57,698 nucleotides of DNA from Nitrospirota bacterium (GTDB lineage Bacteria > Nitrospirota > Thermodesulfovibrionia > Thermodesulfovibrionales > UBA6898), in NCBI GenBank assembly GCA_016214855.1, contig JACRMT010000017.1, positions 1-57,698 of the forward strand, given 5' to 3'. The notes below the pieces were generated by a model that was given only the letters and a program-made list of their open reading frames with translations, searched no databases and was not told where the DNA came from. This document shows, one piece after another, positions 53,339-57,698 of this stretch; the stretch's first letter is position 1, and each line of letters opens with the position of its first letter. Position numbers and translations under genes: made by a program.

Positions 53339-54047
53339 TTCGGATCATCCCGCCCGGCTCATCTCAGACCAGCTCAGCCTCCCCTTTCTCCGCGATGAAC
53401 ATGCTCTGCGCTCTTCCCTGAAGAAACTGTTAGGAAAAGATATCGGGCTCACCCTTACCGACAACAGGACAAGCATGCTTTCAATAAGAAAGGAATCGGA
53501 AAAGCTCAGTCTCCGCATGCACCGAATATTTCTTGAAGCAGAAGAAGCTGTTATCCGGGCAGTTGCCGACTTTATCAAAAACAGGAGGTCTGCCCGTCCG
53601 GTGCTTCAGGCCTTTATTCGCGCTCAGAGCAGTTCACTGAGATCCCGGACACCGCGGAAAAGGACAGCCTTGCTCAGGACAGAAGGGGCCTGCCACTGCC
53701 TTGCGTCATTGTTCGATAATGTCAATGCCGCCTATTTTCAGGGAGAGATTACTGCCTCGATCACCTGGGGCAGGAGGGCGTCCGGCAGGAGAACCCGGCG
53801 CGTGACGCTTGGGAGCTATTGCCGGGATTCCGGAACCATCAGAATTAACCCTCTGCTTGACCGGCAGACCGTGCCGTCTTTCTTCCTTGAGTTCATCATC
53901 TACCATGAAATGCTCCATGCGTCCCTGGGCACGGTGGTCAGAAATGGAAGGCGCTCAGTCCATTTCAGGGAGTTCCGCCAACGAGAAAAGCAGTTCGCCG
54001 CCTATGAGCAGGCGATCGTCTGGGAGAAAGAACACCTCGCCAGGTGA
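53331..54047 (+). CDS. SprT-like zinc metallopeptidase-family protein
   Basis: 238 residues. FFLEFIIYHEMLHASLG carries a zinc HExxH-type motif (HEMLH), with a third histidine likely in RSVHFREFRQRE. NVNAAYFQGEITASITWGRR is the usual SprT-like lead-in, where the enzyme domain is about 120 residues. The N-terminal 100 residues are helical and basic. The start overlaps the response regulator gene by 8 nt, so the three genes form an operon. The substrate is unknown; SprT relatives act on DNA-protein crosslinks or as chaperone-like proteases. Confidence 0.75.
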   Translation: MNNSDHPARLISDQLSLPFLRDEHALRSSLKKLLGKDIGLTLTDNRTSMLSIRKESEKLSLRMHRIFLEAEEAVIRAVADFIKNRRSARPVLQAFIRAQSSSLRSRTPRKRTALLRTEGACHCLASLFDNVNAAYFQGEITASITWGRRASGRRTRRVTLGSYCRDSGTIRINPLLDRQTVPSFFLEFIIYHEMLHASLGTVVRNGRRSVHFREFRQREKQFAAYEQAIVWEKEHLAR

Positions 54048-54082
54048 TCTGCATTGTTCCTACTGAAGCTGCTCAGGTTGTT

Positions 54083-54172
54083 TAGACTGTAGTCTGTAAG
54101 TATAGACTAACGACTAAACAGTTTCAGACTAAAAACCTATTAGTCTAAACACCTACAGACTATCTACCTATC
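54083..54172. repeat. Cluster of AGACTA/TAGTCT motifs
   Basis: AGACT or its complement occurs six times in 90 bp, including the inverted pair AGACT-GT-AGTCT at 54084-54095 and AGACTA...TAGTCT flanking 54126-54146. The arrangement suggests clustered binding sites for a protein, or iteron-like sequence. Confidence 0.55.
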
Positions 54173-54276
54173 CTCTAACAAATTATGAAAAAAAGTTAAT
54201 CCAATATTCATCTCAACTTCAGAGAGATTGCATAACATATGTATCCGAGAATACCTCGGAACCCTCCATTACCCTC

Positions 54277-54305
54277 GGGCCCTGCAATGCAGGGCCCCTT
54301 TTTTT
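54277..54305 (+). terminator. Intrinsic terminator
   Basis: GGGCCCTGC (54277-54285), loop AAT, GCAGGGCCC (54289-54297), then C and seven T's. It is a near-ideal plus-strand terminator, 230 nt after the SprT-like gene. Confidence 0.9.
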
Positions 54306-54336
54306 GACTCACAGCGTTGAAAACCCCTTCATCTCA

Positions 54337-54948
54337 TCATGACATGGGTTGTCTGACAATCGTTTTCCACTTTTCCGGTGCTGCCCGTCTTATATCACTT
54401 AAATAGATTTCGTGGTGCTTGCCAACCCTGCTGCTGCCATTATCTTCTATGAACAGATGCACCTTCTCAATGGTCGGCCCCTCAGCTGAGAAGGGTCCAA
54501 TATGCATTATTTGCGCGGCCTTTCCCTCCCTGAACGTTTCGAATCTTACCAAAGACAGGGAAACAGGCTTTTTCTTCCTTTCCACCTCTTCCGTTGCCTT
54601 ATTGACCATTTTCAGTGTAATGAACGCCGGTTGCATGAGCATCAAAGTCCACTTCCAGGCAGCCTTGTTTCCTTTACTGAATGCGGACATATCATCAGAC
54701 CACCAAAGGGCTTCGAGCGGCAATACGCCATAGTCGACACCCATTTCGCCTTTTTTGACCATGAACTTCAGCGTGTAGGAAACAGAATAGAGCGCTTCGA
54801 TCGCATCACTGAATGCTTGCGAGGTGTTTGGGTCCCCCTCACCGTCAACCATTAAGAAGTTCATTTCAGGCACATTCACAATTTCAACTTTTTGGGCTGA
54901 TGGCCCATAGAGGTGTTTAAGCTGTTTTTTGTAGTCTATTTTTTCCAT
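54337..54948 (-). CDS. GyrI-like small-molecule-binding protein
   Basis: About 203 residues from ATG 54948 (in-frame ATG 54963 is also possible). VNVPEMNFLMVDGEGDPNTS, the central WKWTLMLMQPAFIT, and HEIYLSDIRRAAPEKWKTIV are typical of stand-alone GyrI-like domain proteins. Such domains bind hydrophobic or cationic compounds; some hydrolyse cyclopropanoids. The specific ligand is unknown. It lies directly after attC site 3 and may be the last cassette of the array or the first chromosomal gene; no attC follows it. Confidence 0.8.
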   Translation of the reverse strand: MEKIDYKKQLKHLYGPSAQKVEIVNVPEMNFLMVDGEGDPNTSQAFSDAIEALYSVSYTLKFMVKKGEMGVDYGVLPLEALWWSDDMSAFSKGNKAAWKWTLMLMQPAFITLKMVNKATEEVERKKKPVSLSLVRFETFREGKAAQIMHIGPFSAEGPTIEKVHLFIEDNGSSRVGKHHEIYLSDIRRAAPEKWKTIVRQPMS

Positions 54949-54983
54949 TTCCTTTGCCAACACGTCACATTCTCATTTTATAC

Positions 54984-55043
54984 TCCCAACGCCCGAAGTA
55001 ACTCGAGAGGCGAAGCCGAATCGGGTTGAGATATGTGTTATGC
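54984..55043 (-). other. attC: attC site 3 (integron recombination site)
   Basis: 60 bp. On the plus strand it begins TCCCAACGCCCGA and ends TCGGGTTGAGATATG and GTTATGC. L-boxes CAACgCCCGA and TCGGGTTG pair with one extrahelical G, the hallmark of attC. Layout and length match classical sites of resistance cassettes. It starts 7 nt after the stop codon of the preceding gene. Confidence 0.75.
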
Positions 55044-55049
55044 AGATTA

Positions 55050-55508
55050 TTATTCATTGTTGTCTGAAGTGCTCGGCAATACGTCGACTCGCCACGAGTC
55101 GCCTTCTTTGACAAGCTCAATTTTGCTTTTGTATTGAAATGCCTTTGACTCACCCGAGTAATATTCGTATAAAATTACCGGAAAGACAATTCGCTTCGAA
55201 TTTATTTCTTTGCCGTTCCCGATTTCGAAGGAAATGTGGCGCGGATTACTGAGGCCTGACATGTATTGTATGAACCAATCTTCATTATTTTCTTTCTTGA
55301 GTTTAGTTGATAGGTTCGCCGAAATAAGTTTATTGCCTGAATCGGCATCACGTTTTGACCATGCAACAAGAAAATCATTTGCCGTTTCCAATGCCTGGAC
55401 GTAGGTTGCTGAAACAATTGGCGCAGTCACTTTGCCTTCTGCGATAGGAACAAACAGAATCAGGCTGATTATTAAAATTGTCTTAGTTATCATATTATCG
55501 TTATGCAT
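55050..55508 (-). CDS. Small exported protein, cassette gene
   Basis: 152 residues (or 147 from the internal ATG 55493). Signal peptide ITKTILIISLILFVPIAEGK. The mature part (ALETANDFLVAWSKRDADSG, KIELVKEGDSWRVDVL) resembles NTF2-like or DUF4019-type small domains, only by general pattern. It is lower in GC than the housekeeping genes and lies between two recombination sites, so it is probably a mobile cassette gene. Function unknown. Confidence 0.7.
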   Translation of the reverse strand: MHNDNMITKTILIISLILFVPIAEGKVTAPIVSATYVQALETANDFLVAWSKRDADSGNKLISANLSTKLKKENNEDWFIQYMSGLSNPRHISFEIGNGKEINSKRIVFPVILYEYYSGESKAFQYKSKIELVKEGDSWRVDVLPSTSDNNE

Positions 55509-55632
55509 AATGCGGCAGTTGAGCGGCCCCGAAGGGGGTCTGACTCGAACTCCTGGTTCTCCCGAGCGTTAGCGAGCGGAAACCAGAAGTTCGTCCGCTC
55601 AACTGCCGCATTCTGCGCTCGCGAAGCGAGCG
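55509..55632. repeat. Large palindrome plus hairpin between cassettes
   Basis: Perfect 18-bp arms AATGCGGCAGTTGAGCGG (55509-55526) and its complement (55595-55612) enclose a second inverted repeat: GAACT.CTGGTT / AACCAG.AGTTC (55547-55592). A further hairpin CGCTCGC-GAA-GCGAGCG follows at 55615-55632. The arms contain GTTGAGC, which fits the integron core GTTRRRY. Confidence 0.8.
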
Positions 55633-55680
55633 GAGAACTGATGAGTTAAGCGGGTTCCCCGCTTGAACGATTGGTTATAG
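55632..55680 (-). other. attC: attC-like site 2 (degenerate R' box)
   Basis: Minus strand: CTATAAC, then CGTTCAAGCGGG, then CCCGCTTAACTCATCAGTT. The CGTTCAAGC and GCTTAACTC boxes are those of classical attC sites. The terminal core reads GTTCTCC instead of GTTRRRY; the true core may lie in the adjacent palindrome. It begins 42 nt after the stop of the gene at 55722. Confidence 0.6.
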
Positions 55681-55721
55681 ATAGTCATCCTTGTCCAATG
55701 TCGAGGTGCGACCCCTCTGCA

Positions 55722-56849
55722 CTATTCCACATCATCATTGTGAATAAATCCATAAAGAAATACGTCCTTTTCGTAATGGGTAACATGCCAATATGGCCCA
55801 TCGTCCTCAAACCCTTCTACTCGATAATCAGTTTCAATCTTTTGCATGCCCGGGGGTATTGCGCCGATTATTTTTGAGTTTCTATCAGCTTTTTCAAAGA
55901 CAGAAACATTATCTTGGCGTAATGTAAGTTGATAACGACCATATCCTGAAGTTCTAATGCCCTCACGCGTCTTATGAATAGCCAGAATGATATCTAAAGT
56001 TGCTGAAAAGATATATTCAAGCTTATCAGCGAGTAAGTCTCTATCTAACTTAGCGAAGTCATGTTTTACAATCCACTTGCCATCCGTAGTCTTGAATACT
56101 TCAGGTGTTAGCCTCCAAACATTCCAAAATGCGGTAGTATCGACGCCATTGGTTAGCAGCTCTTGGTTTATACGGCTATGGTCATAAACTATGTAGTCTG
56201 TAGGTTCTTTAACATTCTTATCAATATACTCCTTGTTTTGCGTGTAATAAGGTGCATATGTAAAGCCCGCAAGAAGCCCCATAGGCTTACCGTCCTTGTA
56301 TTCTGAAATGCTGTAATCTTTTTCGATTGCAAGAAAGATAGCCTTCCGACAGTTGATTGCACAATTTTCCATCTCATTTTTTTCAAGGTCAGCTTTTGCT
56401 TCCAGTAGCAAGGTTTTTGTCGCACCATCTTTCAGTAAATCGATTGCACATATTGTAGAGAATGACGCACCTAATAGCTCCAACGATACTTCGTCAAAAA
56501 ACTCATGAACTGCAACAGTCAGGCGCTCGCACTCATCACGCTCAGGTTGGATGCCATAGTGTTTCGAGTCTACTCTCAGTCTATTGAGACGCAACAACTT
56601 CACTCTAAATGGAAGTTCTTTTGGTGCAATTTTATCATTAATTGCAACAAAATATTTATCAAATTTAGTGTTCTGATCAATAGCGGCGTTTACGTGCTCA
56701 GCAACTGCAATTAAGAATGCCTCGACACTGTCTTGAAAAAGATTTACTGCAGAGAAAAGGTAAAGATCATTTTTTGAGCGAAGACTTGATAGTCCAAGTT
56801 CATACAAATGCCTTGCCAATGATATTCTACGTATTATCTCAATGTCCAT
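55722..56849 (-). CDS. Unknown protein with helical N-terminus and SH3-like C-terminus, cassette gene
   Basis: 375 residues with no signal peptide. The first 280 residues are helical. One segment (SAVNLFQDSVEAFLIAVAEH) and another (NEMENCAINCRKAIFLAIEK) recall HEPN-type or nucleotide-defence proteins, but no catalytic RxxxxH is clear. The C-terminal 80 residues (VFEKADRNSKIIGAIPPG, then GPYWHVTHYEKDVFLYGFI) look like a bacterial SH3 domain. A/T-rich compared with the housekeeping genes and bracketed by attC sites. Function not recognised. Confidence 0.7.
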   Translation of the reverse strand: MDIEIIRRISLARHLYELGLSSLRSKNDLYLFSAVNLFQDSVEAFLIAVAEHVNAAIDQNTKFDKYFVAINDKIAPKELPFRVKLLRLNRLRVDSKHYGIQPERDECERLTVAVHEFFDEVSLELLGASFSTICAIDLLKDGATKTLLLEAKADLEKNEMENCAINCRKAIFLAIEKDYSISEYKDGKPMGLLAGFTYAPYYTQNKEYIDKNVKEPTDYIVYDHSRINQELLTNGVDTTAFWNVWRLTPEVFKTTDGKWIVKHDFAKLDRDLLADKLEYIFSATLDIILAIHKTREGIRTSGYGRYQLTLRQDNVSVFEKADRNSKIIGAIPPGMQKIETDYRVEGFEDDGPYWHVTHYEKDVFLYGFIHNDDVE

Positions 56850-56867
56850 ATGTCTTTAATCATCTCA

Positions 56868-56956
56868 GGCTAACGCCGAGGCTAACCAGAGAGGGGGATA
56901 TGAATAATAAAAAAGTCCGACAGCTACCCCGAATCTGGTTGAGCCGTTTGTTAACT
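56868..56956 (-). other. attC: attC site 1 (integron recombination site)
   Basis: 89 bp. On the minus strand: R'' AGTTAAC, L'' GGCTCAACCAGA, variable loop, L' TCTGGTTAGCC and R' GCGTTAGCC. L''/L' pair over 11 bp with a single unpaired base, as in genuine attC sites. The stop codon of the preceding gene lies within R'', as is common in cassettes. Confidence 0.8.
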
Positions 56957-57445
56957 GCTTCCGTCATCTTTTTTCTTCACTTCAAAGGCGGCGGTATTTT
57001 GAAGAACCCGTAGAAATTCAGTCTGAATCTTCCCTTGCATCTCCGCTTGGTCAACGTGACCTTGTGGAATATAAAACTTATCAATGTCAGTCTGTTGTAG
57101 ATTTTTATAGCCCAAGTCTTCAGCAATCGCGGATAGCAGTTCAAGATATTTGTGCTTCTGATTCTCTAATGCCCTTGAATCAGGTATTGTTTGGCAGAGA
57201 AACTCATAATATTCATGCCAAAGTCGGATTACCTTATCATTGGCATGAAAAATTACATCCAGTGTATTCAGGGCCTCAACCAGGGCAAAGCTTATTGGGA
57301 TGGATTTGCGATGGCCCATTAAGGTCAGGAATACCTTATGTTTGATTTCCTGTTTTTCTTTTTGCCTTTGATAGGCCAGTGTAATGATGACGGCGATAAC
57401 CGGGCCAACAATGACCGCGATAATATTCATGGTTTGATTGTCCAT
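56951..57445 (-). CDS. Single-span membrane protein, probably DUF6680, cassette gene
   Basis: 164 residues. An N-terminal membrane helix (MNIIAVIVGPVIAVIITLAY) is followed by a cytoplasmic helical domain: HKVFLTLMGHRKSIPISFAL, VIRLWHEYYEFL. I recall this pattern as DUF6680, common in mobile and defence-rich regions, with no known function. Its stop codon overlaps attC site 1. Upstream (57446-57591) no attC or attI was recognised. Confidence 0.7.
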   Translation of the reverse strand: MDNQTMNIIAVIVGPVIAVIITLAYQRQKEKQEIKHKVFLTLMGHRKSIPISFALVEALNTLDVIFHANDKVIRLWHEYYEFLCQTIPDSRALENQKHKYLELLSAIAEDLGYKNLQQTDIDKFYIPQGHVDQAEMQGKIQTEFLRVLQNTAAFEVKKKDDGSS

Positions 57446-57591
57446 TATTTGCCTCCATTTTTATTTTTATTGCCAGTTAACAAGTTATTATCTAGTTACA
57501 GAAATGCATCTATATATAGATACATGCATCTACAGATATATGCTTGCATCTACCCGTAGAGAGGTCTTGTCAATAGGTGTGTAAAAAGCCA
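57446..57591. repeat. Intergenic region with TGCATCTA repeats
   Basis: TGCATCTA occurs three times between 57503 and 57555, spaced about 21 nt, with related palindromic TATATATAGATA between. A/T-rich, no gene. It may be the promoter or boundary region of the cassette array. Confidence 0.5.
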
Positions 57592-57698
57592 TCAGGCGGC
57601 CATCCTTTCAAGCACCTTCGATTCGCATTTCATAATCCCGTCGACAAACTGTTTTTCTTCGTAAACATTCTGCAATAACCCATAACCCTTCAATGCTC
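57592..57698 (-). CDS. C-terminal end of an unidentified protein (partial)
   Basis: An open frame entering from the right edge ends at TGA 57594-57592. The last 34 residues include GYGLLQNVYEEKQFVDGIMK and KVLERMAA. I do not recognise the family. It does not resemble the C-terminus of an integron integrase. Confidence 0.45.
   Translation of the reverse strand, partial: ALKGYGLLQNVYEEKQFVDGIMKCESKVLERMAA

Follow-up and report, generated by a model that had tools for sequence, protein, structure and literature searches.

CALIN are traced in a review to off-target insertion, loss of intI or rearrangement (PMC8618304). The attI site has been described as immediately adjacent to intI (PMC9668308) and is poorly described outside class 1 (PMC9024848). 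Sequence derived from attI is found away from this usual place in delta-attI cassettes, resistance cassettes whose attC has given way to an attI fragment of 14-18 nt or more, in one case to the whole 65-bp site (PMC12901181). In attC sites, AAC and GTT are the only conserved bases, extrahelical bases and an unpaired central spacer are common to all, and a tested attC without extrahelical bases and spacer recombined drastically less (PMC2727003). On the usual view, IntI requires extrahelical bases and an unpaired spacer in addition to the GTT/AAC triplet. Promoter activity has been described for some gene-less cassettes (PMC11014356, PMC6557892). In the open-licence literature we found no report of several or orphan attI per genome or of the hairpin family described below, and for Nitrospira that literature held only two CALIN, in Ca. 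Nitrospira inopinata.

Here, we describe the right end of a contig of an uncultured Nitrospirota bacterium (C17, 57,698 bp), the whole of which is the window analysed; the genome comprises 3.3 Mb in 23 contigs and is listed as 100% complete. This contig end is an integron gene-cassette array. It resembles sedentary chromosomal integrons and CALIN in its attC-flanked cassettes on one strand, in its genes of mostly unknown function and in having no integrase beside the array, but it differs from them in having its own attI and in belonging to a family with several attI and one or few integrases per genome. Unlike in delta-attI cassettes, it is the whole attI with its leader that heads separate arrays here. 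The array also contains a gene-free unit of 127 bp between two crossovers, a likeness to the known ORF-less cassettes (PMC11014356, PMC6557892); whereas the Vibrio examples presented there were tested for promoter activity, the present unit belongs to a structured family with mostly ATT/AAT triplets. We consider it probable that the locus is a chromosomal integron array with its own attI and the sole intI elsewhere, in which the 127-bp unit behaves as a gene-less cassette.

The cassette array at the contig end

Read along the minus strand, on which all features of the array lie, the right end of the window starts with the end of an IS256/Mutator-family insertion sequence (57561-57698, the 3′ end of the transposase gene), where the contig breaks off. 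It is followed by an attI leader (57504-57553) that contains short TAGATGC/GCATCTA repeats and is homologous to the one found at the intI-linked attI of contig C4, and by the attI core CTGTAACTAGATAATAACTTGTT (57479-57501), with the crossover between 57481 and 57480. The first cassette gene encodes a DUF6680 protein of 164 aa (56951-57445; Pfam PF20385, E 2e-41) and is followed by attC1 (56868-56956). The second encodes a 375-aa protein without family match (55722-56849) and is followed by the short attC2 (55632-55680), whose R′ box extends into the start of the gene-less unit (55511-55637). Beyond this unit lie the gene of a 152-aa protein with a signal-peptide-like start and a weak, below-cut-off match to the NTF2-like MecA_N (55050-55508; 55493 may be an alternative start), attC3 (54984-55043) and the gene of a GyrI-like protein of 208 aa (54337-54963; Pfam PF06445, E 1.7e-14), to the left of which ordinary genes on the plus strand begin. 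The cassettes thus share one orientation and are followed by attC sites that are clear for attC1 and attC2 and weak for attC3. The GyrI-like gene is either the last cassette or the first gene past the array, and the attC scanner found no clear or strong attC-like match after it. At this far end, we noticed a cluster of short TAGACTA/TAGTCTA-type repeats (54088-54165) like the repeat leaders upstream of attI in relatives. PADLOC reported a weak partial CARF-type match for the DUF6680 protein (E 1.8e-5) and nothing else, and a defence role of the cassette genes is unsupported.

The initial annotation had proposed an integron gene-cassette array of three same-strand genes, each followed by an attC-like palindrome. 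The array and the common strand are borne out, while the number of genes has to be raised to four, and neither attI nor the gene-less element was among the listed parts. The suggestion that this might be the distal end of an array is not supported, since attI at the window end makes it the proximal one. No integrase lies in the window, as had been noted, and CALIN is a possible class; the contig breaks at the insertion sequence about 60 bp beyond attI, and a neighbour of this attI may therefore have been lost or left unassembled.

The canonical attC1 (AGTTAAC aaac GGCT[C]AACCAGA ... TCTGGTTAGCC tcggc GTTAGCC) has one extrahelical base and a score of 15.1, which was matched by none of 200 shuffles of the region, and in non-array DNA from this genome, 270 kb with both strands summed, no score reached 15.0. 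The shuffles and the non-array DNA together rule out chance palindromes. For attC2 (CTATAAC caatc GTT[C]AAGCGGG ... CCCGCTTAAC tcatca GTTCTCC), which lies exactly where it had been placed at first, we found 10 pairs, no mismatch and one extrahelical base. The third site proposed initially, attC3, is weak when taken alone, its score of 9.1 being within the noise, but its L''-to-L' segment, with a fully paired stem, recurs as a partial site where the array of a relative is cut off (L181). In all three sites, an interruption follows directly after the triplet. The two best attC-scanner scores in the whole window were those of attC1 and of a composite overlapping attC2; the top scorer, site 2b (55597-55651), was rejected as a separate attC, consisting of part of attC2 and the hairpin unit. 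In arrays beside intI in relatives, the scanner gave 28 matches on the expected strand, compared with 10, 7 and 6 in three control sets; with an earlier, looser scanner the signal was not separable from noise.

attI copies and the single integrase gene

A single integron integrase in the genome exceeds the family cut-off (383 bits). It is encoded on another contig, C4, with its own attI adjacent on the 5′ side, and the window contains none. The homologue at the window end is 79% identical to this intI-linked attI over 82 bp, leader and core included. In many relatives, intI has AATAACTGG|TT or a closely similar core at a distance of 131-292 bp (larger in two), and this proximity marks the core as attI. 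IntI itself (L011:9344-10849) has 501 aa, and its integron-specific match starts at residue 189, with 188 residues before it; the SAM-like domain profile gave a second matching stretch somewhere in the protein. Since its relatives match over residues 1-501, the N-terminal extension is a feature of the clade and not a peculiarity of this protein. The closest intI relatives are mostly from uncultured Nitrospirota, followed by those from Nitrospinota and Desulfobacterota, and on this basis the genome itself would be placed in Nitrospirota. Between intI and attI on C4 we noticed a 115-aa DUF5710 reading frame (L011:11055-11402), which gives an unusually long spacing.

Two further attI copies were found in the same genome. 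The third copy is located on contig C12 (C12:50550) beside hicB/hicA-like genes, as judged by eye from their translations; after it come a cassette gene and an attC-like site with a score of 16.4. The fourth copy differs by one change (AATCACTGG) and is found at C4:535,100, where a further hairpin unit follows directly. The exact pattern AACTNNNTAATAACTNGTT gave 24 matches in the 27 genomes of the family and none with the reversed control. Among 23 attI-core loci, including that of the window (L019), intI lay clearly within the examined flank in one (L185), a 60-aa match being all that was seen in L177; the flanks covered up to 1.5 kb and were shorter in some cases, and the result is thus a lower bound on the distance to intI, not proof of its absence. 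Attachment sites were distributed asymmetrically around these loci, with nine attC-like sites downstream and none upstream on the array strand. In one genome of the set (G007), five attI cores are located on five contigs, none of which is its intI contig.

The attI copies without nearby intI are best read, as far as their sequence and surroundings tell, as separate attI platforms, and a single IntI would then serve these remote sites in trans. If one integrase indeed serves several attI, some integrase-less arrays may be working platforms and not remnants.

The insertion sequence at the window end suggests another arrangement. The same 138-139 bp IS256/Mutator-family end occurs at six contig ends (C4, C5, C10, C17, C21 and C22), and the copy on C10 runs into a Transposase_mut reading frame (E 1.1e-47); beyond that copy, C10 carries a third cassette array. 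As C4 and C17 both terminate in this insertion sequence, reached from an identical end, and their orientations would fit two inverted copies of it, the array of the window and that beside intI on C4 could be one integron that was broken and rearranged by insertion sequences, leaving no independent attI platform here. A junction of C4 and C17 through one insertion sequence was rejected, both contigs entering from the same end, which a single copy cannot join. We regard a broken integron as possible but rather unlikely, given that the attI on C12 lies far from any contig end with ordinary genes on its flanks, and that the five cores of G007 are spread over contigs other than its intI contig.

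Structure and distribution of the gene-less unit

With separate attI platforms as the preferred reading, we turn to the unit that follows attC2. The 127-bp unit (TTCTCC...GCA, 55637-55511) contains most of a 22-nt inverted repeat (55505-55616), the longest of the region, which was rejected as a terminator for want of a T run. It is composed of a 5′ hairpin (55611-55637), a long stem (55595-55610 paired with 55511-55526) and an inner branched part between the two arms. A covariance model built from four copies, and then from eight, recovered the unit in integron arrays of the intI relatives and of the same genome, and in 11 of the 27 family genomes; a later stem-only model detected it in 22 of 176 genomes of the order, and the 5′ hairpin was present in all but one of 30 stem-only matches inspected. 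The family ranges from 118 to 140 bp in length and has a conserved secondary structure across many genera. In an alignment of 33 copies, 41 of the 47 pairs were changed on both sides and 87.5% of the cells were paired, compared with 68.6% in shuffled and at most 48% in slid controls of the same alignment; this alignment was built with the model and therefore leans to the structure, yet the slid controls were far lower all the same.

The stem forms an unbroken helix from the crossover base onwards, with 16 bp in the window copy and mostly 16-17 bp in the family. As a long imperfect palindrome with a branched tip that ends at the crossover base it resembles the VCR-type attC of Vibrio (PMC2727003), but it differs from that site in having neither extrahelical bases nor an unpaired central spacer, and in mostly carrying AAT/ATT instead of AAC/GTT. 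The window copy has AAT/ATT, as do 35 of the 42 copies with the 5′ hairpin (among them L160, L168 and L164), the other seven having AAC/GTT and none a mixed pair. For these reasons we do not count the stem among canonical attC sites; by its position, the unit is cassette-like. Left out of the count was L165, a gene-bearing or truncated copy without the 5′ hairpin, which ends in GTT and directly adjoins the hairpin of another unit, and this junction suggests that the stem is usable as a recombination site. Should a widespread cassette family without the expected features be real, some integrases would accept other sites, or integrons would carry miniature parasites, and standard attC search models may miss such units.

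The same triplets could mark the unit as the dead end of an attC-type cassette, locked to the next cassette by a G-to-A change at the crossover and immobile on its own. AAT/ATT is expected to impair recombination, and copies with AAC/GTT also exist. We think a dead cassette end improbable, however: AAT/ATT predominates across several families of the order, and identical AAT/ATT copies occupy more than one position within a genome, as in G004 (two positions) and in G055.

Position and proposed movement of the unit

The reading of the unit as a gene-less cassette draws on its boundaries. The left neighbour was G in 36 and A in seven of 43 copies (42 with the 5′ hairpin), and the bases after the unit were TT in all 43, followed by A or G in 39. 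At the right end, A|TT or G|TT, the next cassette starts, and 14 copies stand directly after an attI core. The 42 copies bounded by two integron crossovers are complemented by pairs of empty and occupied sites. The attI leader common to L158 and L188 comes with the unit in one locus and without it in the other; L164 and L181 share a gene and its attC, after which L181 continues with CGCG|TTGATT, and L164 with CGCA|TTCCCC and the unit. Furthermore, a cassette starting with TTARACCTTC comes after an attC in L188, and in L158 and L169 after units that differ from each other. The unit copies of the window and of C10 differ at 2 positions.

In many copies, the start codon of the following gene comes shortly after the unit, and compensatory changes preserve the structure, features that would suit a structured RNA leader which regulates the expression of that gene and moves only with it. 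To this reading we assign a small chance. Downstream flanks are unrelated in nearly all copies, identical or near-identical copies stand in unrelated surroundings, different genes follow identical units, and the ends of the unit coincide with crossovers. Departures from pairing are balanced between G-T and A-C, an argument that selection acts on the DNA and not solely on an RNA. The unit gave no promoter-like or terminator-like match, and Rfam 15 no family match up to E 1 for 54000-57698. Judging by sequence comparison, we read the unit as a miniature integron passenger rather than a regulatory RNA.

Upon excision, the 5′ end of such a passenger (A|TTCTCC) would complete an R box with the internal GNAGAAT arm, and IntI may then insert it at an attI or attC crossover despite the ATT/AAT triplets, as its positions suggest. 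The arrangement G|TTCTCC...GCA|TT is that expected after a circle with the core A|TTCTCC inserts into G|TT. Some features count against the cassette reading: all copies have the same orientation, though the stem is without an obvious strand mark, the triplets are mostly ATT/AAT, six hairpin-bearing copies have A on their left, and the stem lacks extrahelical base and unpaired spacer, the two features whose loss drastically reduced recombination of a tested attC (PMC2727003).

A 2-bp TT target duplication would leave an identical sequence, and with TT at both ends a MITE-like element, moved by another transposase that prefers integron crossovers, would look the same as a unit inserted by IntI; one copy (L201) is located outside an array. 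We nevertheless judge such an element very unlikely, as almost all of the 42 copies occupy crossovers of attI or attC, and IntI is all that these two kinds of site have in common. For the gene-less cassette, we tentatively extend our reading, with somewhat more doubt than confidence, to hairpin cassettes that have spread through the integrons of Nitrospirota and their neighbours with ATT/AAT triplets and without extrahelical bases, and to one integrase that serves several attI platforms in trans.

In six hairpin-bearing copies (L153, L146, L164, L167, L168 and L201), the left crossover base is A and not G, a difference that simple insertion leaves unexplained. The copy outside any visible array (L201, G137:C26:12602-12702) lies in the middle of an inverted repeat, TAACCATA/TATGGTTA.
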